From positions 2,852,001 to 2,916,000 of the forward strand of contig NZ_CP053941.1 of assembly GCF_013267195.1 (NCBI RefSeq): a stretch of DNA of 64,000 bases. Reading direction: 5' to 3'. Below, in pieces: positions 44,972 to 54,643 of this stretch. The notes under the pieces are model-generated. The model was not told the DNA's origin, did no database searches, and saw only the letters and a list, made by a program, of their open reading frames with translations. The translations under genes and the position numbers were made by a program. The stretch is from Halorubrum salinarum (GTDB lineage: Archaea; Halobacteriota; Halobacteria; Halobacteriales; Haloferacaceae). Position 1 is the stretch's first letter; each line of letters opens with the position of its first letter.

Positions 44972-44983
44972 CGAACGTGTTCG
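44972..44983 (+). promoter_or_regulatory. GAACRYGTTC palindrome, copy 1 (before DUF2249-cupin gene)
   Basis: CGAACGTGTTCG, a perfect 12-bp palindrome, is centred 45 bp before the ATG at 45023. No good TATA box lies between, so an activator may be needed. It is the first of five copies between 44.9 and 54.7 kb. Confidence 0.7.
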
Positions 44984-45022
44984 CGCCGCCCGACATGCGG
45001 CTGCGGCGTCGACGGTCGAGCG

Positions 45023-45565
45023 ATGTCCGAACTCGACGTCAGAGAGATCCCGCCGAACGAGCGACACGACCGGATCCACGAGGCGTTCGCCGACCTGGAG
45101 CCGGGCGAGTCGCTCACGATCGTCAACGACCACGACCCGAAGCCGCTCTACTACGAGCTGTCGGCCGAGGTCCCCGCGTTCGACGACGAGGCGTACGCGG
45201 TCGAACGCGAGGGTCCCGAGCGCTTCGTCGCGGAACTGCCGAAGGCCGAGGGCGGAGCCGAGCCGGAGGCGGTCCGGATCGCCGACCTCGACGGCGAGCC
45301 CCACGCCCGGGCGTTCCCCGGCGCGGAGCCGAAGACCGTCCGGCTCTCGCTGGACGCCGGCGAGTCGGTGGCGGAGCACGACCACCCGGACCGGACGGTG
45401 CTGTTCCACGCGCTGACGGGCGCCTTCGACGTCGCGCTCGACGGGGAGCCCCACCGCGTCGAGGCCGGCGGGCTGCTCCGCTTCGAGGGCGATCGGACGG
45501 TGAAGCCGACCGCGCGCGAGGACGCCACCGCGCTGATCGTGCTGGCGCCGCGGGGGGAAGCGTAG
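45023..45565 (+). CDS. DUF2249 domain fused to a cupin domain
   Basis: A 180-residue protein. Residues 1-85 are a DUF2249 (TusA-like) domain: LDVREIPPNERHDRIHEAF, GESLTIVNDHDPKPLYYEL. Residues 95-178 are a cupin with EHDHPDRTVLFHALTGAFDVALDGE, giving His and Glu metal-ligand candidates. DUF2249 proteins recur beside nitrate, nitrite and nitric-oxide metabolism genes in haloarchaea and bacteria, which fits the nos genes downstream. The fusion with a metal-binding cupin suggests a sensor or metal/NO-handling role (inference). A palindrome 45 bp upstream links it to the nos regulon. Confidence 0.84.
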   Translation: MSELDVREIPPNERHDRIHEAFADLEPGESLTIVNDHDPKPLYYELSAEVPAFDDEAYAVEREGPERFVAELPKAEGGAEPEAVRIADLDGEPHARAFPGAEPKTVRLSLDAGESVAEHDHPDRTVLFHALTGAFDVALDGEPHRVEAGGLLRFEGDRTVKPTAREDATALIVLAPRGEA

Positions 45566-45616
45566 GCGACGCGCGACTTCGGCGGCCGACGGTCCCGGAG
45601 CGGACGGCGTTCGCTC

Positions 45617-45628
45617 CGAACATGTTCG
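45617..45628 (+). promoter_or_regulatory. GAACRYGTTC palindrome, copy 2 (before halocyanin gene)
   Basis: CGAACATGTTCG is a perfect palindrome centred 45 bp upstream of the TATA-like TTACAA at 45665-45670, the same centre-to-TATA distance as copy 3 at nosZ. Confidence 0.75.
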
Positions 45629-45664
45629 TCGGAATTCCCGCACGGCGAGTCGGCGCGCAGGGCG

Positions 45665-45670
45665 TTACAA
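45665..45670 (+). promoter_or_regulatory. TATA-like element of the halocyanin gene
   Basis: TTACAA is centred about 28 bp before the ATG at 45696, giving a leaderless or nearly leaderless transcript. Confidence 0.5.
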
Positions 45671-45695
45671 CTACCGACCGCGAACGACGACCCAC

Positions 45696-46235
45696 ATGAC
45701 GGACGACACGACACTCGATCGGCGACGGTTCGTACAGGCGACGACCGCCGCGGGCGCGACGCTCCTCCTCGCCGGCTGTTCCGGCGGGGGCGACGGCGGC
45801 GACGGCTCCGGCGGCGACGGCTCCGACGGGAGCGACGGCTCGGACGGCGGCTCCGGCGACGGCGGAGACGGCGGCGACACCCAGTACCTCGGCGAGGAGC
45901 CGGACTACGGCGGCTGGATGGAAGGGGCGAACAACTACGAGCAGACCGTCGACGCCACCGGCCAAGACGAGGTCACGGTCTCGGTCGGCGCGGGGGACGG
46001 CCTCTCCTTCGGCCCGGCCGCCGTGGCGGTGAGCACCGGGACCACCGTCGTCTGGGAGTGGACCGGACAGGGCGGCGGCCACAACGTCGCCGCCGACTCG
46101 GGCGCGTTCGAGAGCGAGACGGTCACCGAGGAGGGCCACACCTTCGAGTACACCTTCGAGGAGACGGGGACGTTCACCTACGAGTGTACCCCCCACTCGT
46201 CGGTCGGCATGAAGGGCGCCGTCGTCGTTCGGTGA
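45696..46235 (+). CDS. Halocyanin (blue-copper lipoprotein)
   Basis: A 179-residue cupredoxin. The Tat motif DRRRFVQATT and lipobox LAGC with C28 show export and lipid anchoring on the outer face of the membrane. A Gly/Asp/Ser linker (about 30-60) follows, then a plastocyanin-like domain. All four type 1 copper ligands are visible: H129 (GGHNVAA), C164, H167 and M172 (CTPHSSVGM). Located between the DUF2249-cupin gene and nosZ, and carrying the same upstream palindrome, it is the likely electron donor to NosZ (inference from context; halocyanins are established mobile electron carriers). Confidence 0.93.
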   Translation: MTDDTTLDRRRFVQATTAAGATLLLAGCSGGGDGGDGSGGDGSDGSDGSDGGSGDGGDGGDTQYLGEEPDYGGWMEGANNYEQTVDATGQDEVTVSVGAGDGLSFGPAAVAVSTGTTVVWEWTGQGGGHNVAADSGAFESETVTEEGHTFEYTFEETGTFTYECTPHSSVGMKGAVVVR

Positions 46236-53132: not shown

Positions 53133-53182
53133 GCGCGCCCGTTCGGCGCCGGCGTGGAAGTACCTTCGGCTCCGCGCTCGCC

Positions 53183-53194
53183 GGAACATGTTCG
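53183..53194. promoter_or_regulatory. GAACRYGTTC palindrome, copy 4 (between HTH-10 and DUF2249 genes)
   Basis: GGAACATGTTCG lies in the 100-bp divergent gap, centred 45 bp before the DUF2249 ATG (53233), the same distance as copy 1, and 56 bp before the regulator ATG. It could control both genes and allow autoregulation. Confidence 0.7.
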
Positions 53195-53232
53195 TCACAA
53201 ACGACCCGGGGACCGGGTTCGTCGATCGACAC

Positions 53233-53598
53233 ATGAGCTCCGAACCCGGCGATTCCGCGGCGGTCGAACGGGCGGTGGCCGAGCGGACGGACGCGCCGAC
53301 CGAGGGGGAGACGGTCGCCCTCGACGTGCGGACGCTCGGTCCGCCGAAGCCGCTGCGCGAGACGCTCGAACGCGTCGAGACGCTCGGCGACGGCGACGTG
53401 TTAGTCCAGTACAACGACCGGAGCCCGCAGTTCCTCTTCCCGCGCTTGGAGGACCGCGGGTTCGCCTACGCCGCGGTCGAGACGGACGCGACGGAGGCGA
53501 CCGTCACCGCCATCTGGCCGGCCGACGGCGGGCGGGCCGCGGCGGACGAGCGGGCCGCCGAGGGCGACTCAGGCGCCGGCGACGCGACCGCGACGTAG
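53233..53598 (+). CDS. DUF2249 domain protein
   Basis: A 121-residue protein with a single DUF2249 domain (about 28-98): VALDVRTLGPPKPLRETLERVETLGDGDVLVQYNDRSPQFLFPRLEDRG. It has no cupin, unlike the protein at 45023, and a disordered Ala/Asp/Glu tail. The DUF2249 fold is TusA-like, but the TusA sulfur-carrier cysteine is absent; no cysteine occurs in this protein. It sits beside nos genes with the shared palindrome, so a role in anaerobic nitrogen-oxide metabolism is likely. Exact function unknown. Confidence 0.82.
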   Translation: MSSEPGDSAAVERAVAERTDAPTEGETVALDVRTLGPPKPLRETLERVETLGDGDVLVQYNDRSPQFLFPRLEDRGFAYAAVETDATEATVTAIWPADGGRAAADERAAEGDSGAGDATAT

Positions 53599-53668
53599 CC
53601 GCCTGATGGGACGAACCATTCGAGATTGACGCGACGGTCTCCGGCGTCGCGCGCGGCGGCGCGTTCGG

Positions 53669-54559
53669 CTATCCCCCGCGCAGCGCCCGCCACTTCGCGG
53701 CGACGAACCCCGCCAGGATGAAGGCGAACCCGACGACGGTCGCGGCCGTCACCGCCTGGCCGAGCACGAGCCAGCCCGCCAGCGCCGCGAACACGGGGAT
53801 CACGTACTCGATGAAGCTCATCTCGACAGGACCGAGGTCGTCCAGCAGCGAGAAGTACAGCAGGAACCCCCCGACGCCGGCGACCGCGGAGAGGTACGCG
53901 ACGGCGCCGAGCGCGGACGGGGTCCATGCGGCGGTCGCGAACGACTGGCCCGGGACCGCGAGCACGGCGGCGTGGAGGACCGCCGCGCCGACCGCCATCA
54001 TCCACGCCTGCGTGGCGACGAACGGCATCGACGGCGATCGGCTGTGGGTGACGACCGCGGCGACGGCGAACGCGAGCGCGGACGCGAGCACGAGCGCGAC
54101 GCCGAGGACGCTGTCCGCGAGGTTCGCGGGGTCGGGGTCGGCGATGACGACGACGCCGACGAACCCGAGCGCGACGCCGACCGCGGTGCCGGCGGTGACT
54201 TCCGCGTCGGTGGACGCGAGCCGCGTTAGTGCGGGCGTCACCACGGGGACGAGGCCCAACAGGACGGCCGCGACGGCGCCGGTGACGTACCGCTGTCCGG
54301 CGAACAGGAACGCGTGATGGGCGCCGATGATGAGGGCCCCGCCGACGAGCACGTACACGTAGTCGTCGCGGGTCCGGGGGCGAACGTCCGTCCCCGAGGC
54401 GAGGACGCCGCCGAACAGCAGCGCGGCGGCGACGTCGAAGCGCACGGCCGCGAACGGGACCGGGGGGAGGTCCGCGAGGCCGACGTCCGTCGCCATGAAC
54501 GCCGTCCCCCAGACGGCGCAAAGCAGGAGGAAGCGGCCGGCCGTCCGGTAGCGACTCAT
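53669..54559 (-). CDS. EamA/DMT family transporter (ten helices)
   Basis: A 296-residue protein of ten helices in two EamA repeats, complete with motifs LCAVWGTAFMATDVGL and RFDVAAALLFGG in the first, and SLLDDLGPVEMSFIEYVIPVFAALAGWLVLGQAVT in the second. Family members export amino acids and other metabolites. It is convergent with the DUF2249 gene and divergent from the radical SAM gene, whose palindrome (copy 5) lies 73-84 bp from this start. A TATTTCG element sits 29 bp upstream. Confidence 0.87.
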   Translation of the reverse strand: MSRYRTAGRFLLLCAVWGTAFMATDVGLADLPPVPFAAVRFDVAAALLFGGVLASGTDVRPRTRDDYVYVLVGGALIIGAHHAFLFAGQRYVTGAVAAVLLGLVPVVTPALTRLASTDAEVTAGTAVGVALGFVGVVVIADPDPANLADSVLGVALVLASALAFAVAAVVTHSRSPSMPFVATQAWMMAVGAAVLHAAVLAVPGQSFATAAWTPSALGAVAYLSAVAGVGGFLLYFSLLDDLGPVEMSFIEYVIPVFAALAGWLVLGQAVTAATVVGFAFILAGFVAAKWRALRGG

Positions 54560-54631
54560 TCACGCGGAGGTCGCCGCCGACCGCGAAATACCCGTCGAAC
54601 CGCCTCCGCATTCGCGCGCCGCTCCCGCCGG

Positions 54632-54643
54632 GGAACACGTTCG
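54632..54643 (+). promoter_or_regulatory. GAACRYGTTC palindrome, copy 5 (before radical SAM gene)
   Basis: GGAACACGTTCG is centred 50 bp before the ATG at 54687. With GC-rich surroundings and no clear TATA box, the placement resembles copies 1 and 4. Confidence 0.65.

Follow-up and report, generated by a model that had tools for sequence, protein, structure and literature searches.

In a stretch of 64,000 nucleotides of Halorubrum salinarum (contig NZ_CP053941.1, positions 2,852,001 to 2,916,000; hereafter the window) we studied five intergenic palindromes around a nitrous oxide reductase (nosZ) locus. They are putative operators, and we are fairly confident that they belong to a haloarchaeal regulon for nitric oxide (NO) and nitrous oxide (N2O) respiration that is activated by a protein of the HTH_10 family and uses two promoter geometries. 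In architecture A, the motif begins 49 to 55 nucleotides (nt) before the start codon, usually exactly 50, and the promoter lacks a TATA box. In architecture B, the centre of the motif is 41–45 base pairs (bp) upstream of a TATA box.

The initial annotation, made from the sequence alone, had listed five copies of GAACRYGTTC, and all five were recovered at the same positions, each of them between genes. It had noticed none elsewhere in the window, but there are two more (at 3925 and 60999), both inside coding open reading frames. The seven matches compare with 0.43 expected by shuffling, and none of 100 shuffled sequences reached seven. Five of the seven are intergenic, even though non-coding DNA makes up just 10% of the window. 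When scored against the motif, three of these five sites matched 10/10 positions and two matched 9/10.

Three sites, given like the others without strand, have architecture A. The first, CGAACGTGTTCG (44972–44983), begins 51 nt before the ATG of a gene encoding a DUF2249-cupin protein, and the DUF2249-cupin genes of other haloarchaea have sites at the same position. The second, GGAACATGTTCG (53183–53194), begins 50 nt before the ATG of a DUF2249 gene (53233) and 62 nt from that of the divergent HTH_10 gene, before which it is kept in nine Halorubrum genomes, including this one. The third, GGAACACGTTCG (54632–54643), begins 55 nt before the ATG of a radical SAM gene. Measured from its centre, the motif is 45.5 and 44.5 bp away from the ATG of the two DUF2249 genes, close to the 45 bp that had been claimed for them, and 49.5 bp away from that of the radical SAM gene. 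The other two sites, CGAACATGTTCG (45617–45628) before a halocyanin gene and CGAACGTGTTCG (46359–46370) before nosZ, have architecture B. Here too the claimed spacing was confirmed, since both centres lie 45.0 bp upstream of the centre of the TATA box, although the TATA-like element of the halocyanin promoter (TTACAA, 45665–45670, forward strand) is weak. Both boxes were read from the sequence; that of nosZ (TATATA, 46407–46412, forward strand) is conserved in relatives.

The spacing of architecture A recurs in many genera of Halobacteria. We counted sites with at least 9/10 matching positions in the promoters of two gene sets. Among loci of the CGCGG-family peptide, a putative ribosomally synthesised and post-translationally modified peptide (RiPP), 27 of 30 from many genera have a site at 49–55 nt, most exactly at 50, and most of a further 20 behave likewise. 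The same holds for 15 of 20 DUF2249 loci across the class, a set made of single-domain genes, the top DUF2249 matches having been internal domains of multi-domain proteins without a promoter. None of 29 other palindromes made by permuting the CGAAC arm was found at 49–55 nt in either set. Haloarchaeal nos and HTH_10 regions totalling 1.27 Mb contained 221 intergenic sites (null mean 13, maximum 43), of which 66 lie at 49–55 nt (null mean 0.28, maximum 3), with a spike of 35 sites at exactly 50 nt. Plasmid records with annotated start codons gave the same motif-to-start distances. Architecture A was present at 36 of 49 DUF2249 genes, 7 of 12 radical SAM genes and 5 of 8 cupin genes, and at 12 of 923 other genes. 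A distance of 54–56 nt, as at the radical SAM gene of the window, recurs at 7 of the 12 radical SAM genes. Secondary sites near −92 at the RiPP genes were considered as a third geometry and rejected, as they are the −50 sites of the divergent genes (in this genome and in annotated divergent pairs).

No TATA box was found between the architecture A site and the ATG in any of the 28 promoters examined, where the best six-base match reached just 3 or 4 of 6 positions; a better match is present in most nirK and nosZ promoters. Conserved instead are a weak A pair near −34/−33, a single A/T at −27 and a T/A-rich pair at −11/−10. Haloarchaeal promoters have a TFB-recognition element (BRE, CGAAA), a TATA element (TTWT) and a −10 WW element, and 72% of the transcripts of Haloferax volcanii are leaderless (PMC4983044). 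We infer that the transcripts of architecture A genes start at the ATG.

Architecture B is found at nosZ, at halocyanin genes and at most nirK promoters with a clear TATA box. In nine Halorubrum loci the motif centre is 45 bp upstream of the TATATA of nosZ or a close variant of it; eight Halorubrum nosZ promoters keep the site of 46359 at −108/−109, and locus L053 has a copy with one mismatch. None of the 52 halocyanin and none of the 52 NosZ genes has architecture A, and sites in the range of architecture B occur at 15 and 10 of them, respectively. In nirK promoters with a clear TATA box the distance to the motif is mostly 41–43 bp; several others have no clear TATA box. In one genus of the order (loci L295–L302 and L304–L307) the nirK site is mostly CGAACACGTTCA, with the next ATG downstream over 250 nt away, and the annotated start codons may be off; in the two loci measured, the TATA box is 63–64 bp from the motif, which exceeds the distance in most other nirK promoters by around two helical turns. 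The permuted-palindrome nulls, the spacing across the class and the split by gene class together argue strongly that the two spacing classes, which had been described from the window only, are a general rule in Halobacteria.

The motif itself is not new, since it has been published in the nos and nor promoters of Haloferax mediterranei. There, CGAAYATDKTYG occurs in nar, nir, nor and nos promoters; at nos and nor it has the form CGAACATGTTCG, and mutation of the motif lowers the activity of these two promoters (Miralles-Robledillo 2023, PMC10062603). Induced genes with the motif in RNA sequencing of denitrifying cells include DUF2249 genes and a bacterio-opsin-activator-like gene, and the protein that binds the motif is given as unidentified (Miralles-Robledillo 2024, PMC11218638). 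The sites of the window are the same 12-bp semi-palindrome, CGAAC-NN-GTTCG, and the 2-bp spacer, which the initial annotation had singled out for comparison, is identical to the published one. The halocyanin site is identical in every letter to the nos and nor sites of Hfx. mediterranei. In that species, the motif lies upstream of nos, nor, nir, halocyanin and DUF2249 genes and of the bacterio-opsin-activator-like regulator, with motif-to-ATG distances of 66, 69, 79 and 319 nt (PMC10062603, PMC11218638). The window sites likewise lie in promoters of a nitrogen-oxide reductase and of accessory genes (nosZ, halocyanin, DUF2249), and the NO reductase gene has a degenerate site elsewhere in the genome. 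The motif and the regulon are therefore known, and the window locus is a further member. That full promoter activity requires the motif is established for nos and nor of Hfx. mediterranei only (PMC10062603). The idea that the palindrome defines a nos/denitrification regulon is thus supported by the published mutagenesis and by conservation of the sites at orthologous promoters across the class.

The whole genome has 53 matches to GAACRYGTTC and 286 sites with up to one mismatch. Among the 43 matches classified outside the window, 38 are coding and 5 intergenic, around the level expected by chance; since most matches are coding, the genome-wide count is uninformative. Outside the window only the full 12-mer CGAACNNGTTCG carries a signal, provided that its centre is AT or GT; there are just two such sites there, C1:1899570 and C1:2115448 (coordinates outside the window have the prefix C1), both intergenic. 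The site at C1:1899570 is located between a CGCGG-family peptide gene (C1:1899208–1899531; TIGR03995, 138.7 bits, above the NCBI cutoff) and the only DUF2249 gene beyond the window, so that all three DUF2249 genes of the genome have the palindrome. Each gene of this divergent pair has a site exactly 50 nt upstream of its start codon; the two sites are 1899570 (10/10) and 1899612 (9/10). An NO reductase gene (C1:2002868–2005156) is divergent from a gene for a ThiS/MoaD-like protein, and here, too, each gene has a site exactly 50 nt upstream (one scores 8/10, the other 9/10); the one of the NO reductase gene is degenerate. These two genes and the radical SAM gene of the window fit architecture A. 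No protein of the genome scored over the cutoff for NirK. Given NosZ and NO reductase without NirK, the organism is at most a partial denitrifier, and the regulon in this genome comprises NO and N2O reduction and accessory genes and falls short of a full denitrification pathway. Elsewhere, a small DUF2250-domain gene is a possible member of the regulon: AGAACATGTTCG (C1:2069107–2069118, L141) lies around 80 bp before it, and a TATA-like box separates the two.

The best candidate for the activator is the HTH_10 product of 52449–53132 (reverse strand); the case for it is circumstantial, and we regard the assignment as about evenly balanced. Its recognition helix, AKSTCSE, is nearly invariant among its relatives. 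In 65 of 137 genomes the best HTH_10 homologue lies within 5 kb of a peptide (RiPP), radical SAM or DUF2249 gene, and 13 homologues are, like the one of the window, encoded divergently from a DUF2249 gene. Several genera carry a site at −50 or −54 of the HTH_10 gene itself. Counted from the HTH_10 start codon, the region between the divergent HTH_10 and DUF2249 genes of Natrialbaceae has sites at three positions, −96, −50 and −13 (L191:15550–15644, L196:7906–7999, L373, L374). The −13 site would overlap the predicted transcription start, which suggests autorepression. We also considered whether the presence of the HTH_10 protein tracks that of the motif across genomes, and set this aside because it rests on just two genomes of one genus that lack both (G070, G125).

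Like NarO, a regulator of Hfx. volcanii tied to denitrification, the window protein has a DNA-binding domain of the bacterio-opsin-activator type (PF04967, 66.9 bits). NarO reportedly carries an N-terminal cysteine motif, CXnCXCX7C, which a pattern search did not find in the window protein. The genes also differ in location, upstream of the nar operon for NarO and in the nos island, downstream of the nosZ, nosD and ABC genes, for the window protein. It could still be that the binder is NarO or some other cysteine-containing HTH_10 protein, the local gene being simply a target of the regulon. We consider this unlikely, but it is the best of the alternatives: NarO controls the denitrification genes of Hfx. 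volcanii, and promoters of this kind are reported to carry a similar motif in several genera (Hattori 2016, via PMC10062603 and PMC11218638). Two HTH_10 proteins of this genome (L154, L163) match the loose pattern C-Xn-C-X-C-X7-C, but they differ in the recognition helix. Moreover, Hfx. mediterranei is reported to lack NarO and yet uses the motif (PMC10062603), and it is the lineage of the local HTH_10 protein that travels with the genes of the regulon.

Activation could also be the wrong sign. The sites, at least those of architecture A, might be repressor operators that keep TATA-less genes off in the presence of oxygen, as a site so close to the promoter could block TFB/TBP, and the additional Natrialbaceae site 13 nt before the HTH_10 start codon is consistent with autorepression. 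We find this improbable, since in Hfx. mediterranei the nos and nor promoters become less rather than more active when the motif is mutated (PMC10062603), DUF2249 genes are induced under denitrification (PMC11218638), and a promoter without a TATA box needs help, not blocking. The notion that the sites are chance palindromes in G+C-rich DNA, which the mostly coding, chance-level matches in the rest of the genome might invite, is refuted for the five window sites by the permuted-palindrome nulls and by the fixed 50-nt spacing in many genera.

Several observations weigh against activation of the regulon by the local HTH_10 protein through two geometries. A perfect CGAACGTGTTCG at C1:2115448–2115459 (L144), between transducer-like and NurA-domain genes, fits neither geometry, and may be due to chance or serve an unknown target. 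The genome has one other HTH_10 protein with the same recognition helix, AKSTCSETLHRAE (C1:2163742–2164686, L396), a possible partner or competitor of the window regulator; its neighbourhood is unrelated, with glycine cleavage and threonine synthase-like genes. Just 4 of 37 HTH_10-like genes in nos-type loci, paralogues counted, have an architecture A site. Some nirK promoters depart from the 41–45 bp distance to the TATA box, with exceptions at 61–64 bp, and many nosZ genes outside the close Halorubrum relatives lack a direct site, probably as internal genes of operons. The transcription starts are predicted positions. Finally, the loci are related by descent, so the counts are not independent and overstate the evidence; the fixed spacing does recur in several families of the class.

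All genes associated with the five sites are on the forward strand, except that of the HTH_10 protein. The DUF2249-cupin gene (45023–45565; PF10006, 86.5 bits; PF07883, 28.9 bits) is followed by those encoding halocyanin, a copper electron carrier (45696–46235; TIGR03102, 134.7 bits), and the TAT (twin-arginine translocation)-dependent NosZ (46468–48387; TIGR04244, 713.9 bits), whose closest relatives are from Halorubrum (96% in Hrr. distributum). A probable membrane protein without family match (48392–49144) precedes NosD (49086–50600, start codon uncertain; TIGR04247, 354.7 bits). An ABC ATPase (50597–51412) and a permease-like protein (51409–52398) are NosF-like and NosY-like by position, and the gene order matches annotated nos loci. 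No nosL was seen beside the nos genes (window 44189–52449), unlike in Natronorubrum and Natronococcus, which have one. Farther along are the DUF2249 protein encoded divergently from the HTH_10 gene (53233–53598; PF10006, 53.8 bits) and the TIGR04053 radical SAM/SPASM protein (54687–55793; 483.7 bits, cutoff 395).

TIGR03995 and TIGR04053 form a pair of a putative RiPP and a radical SAM protein, and Hrr. salinarum has members of both families that exceed the NCBI cutoffs. In 31 of 113 genomes the peptide gene is immediately followed by that of the radical SAM protein, and the two are within 20 kb of each other in 77 entries. By contrast, the genes of Hrr. salinarum are around 1 Mb apart, each with its own palindrome. 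The TIGR04053 protein of the window is the probable partner of the CGCGG peptide, and the gene pairing and shared operators suggest that it may modify the peptide. A literature search for the pair found nothing relevant.

Within the passages covered, neither paper on Hfx. mediterranei gives the two-geometry rule. Those of PMC11218638 do not mention TATA boxes, leaderless transcripts, radical SAM proteins or RiPPs, and those of PMC10062603 mention neither radical SAM proteins nor DUF2249. Relative to these passages, the rule, the TATA-less class, the membership of the peptide and radical SAM genes and the naming of a candidate regulator appear to be new.

We propose that a dimeric activator, most likely the HTH_10 protein 52449–53132, would bind CGAAC-NN-GTTCG at low oxygen or in the presence of nitrogen oxides. 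At architecture A genes (DUF2249, CGCGG peptide and TIGR04053 radical SAM genes, here also those of NO reductase and the ThiS/MoaD-like protein) the centre of the site would be at around −45 of a probably leaderless transcript, and the bound activator, just upstream of the position of TFB/TBP, would substitute for a good TATA box. At architecture B genes the centre, 41–45 bp upstream of the TATA box, would be at around −70 from the predicted transcription start.

Such a model names a testable regulator candidate for the haloarchaeal denitrification motif, and its spacing rule predicts members of the regulon from sequence alone. It would also provide a natural case of archaeal promoters in which an activator apparently stands in for the TATA box, and it connects the metabolism of NO and N2O with a peptide/radical SAM pair that is widespread yet uncharacterised. 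In its widest form, which we advance tentatively and hold to be slightly short of even, one palindrome and one HTH_10 subfamily (helix AKSTCSE) would control an archaeal NO/N2O regulon across the whole class by means of two promoter geometries, the one with and the other without a TATA box, and the radical-SAM-modified CGCGG peptide and the DUF2249 proteins would be a dedicated part of archaeal nitrogen-oxide respiration or sensing.

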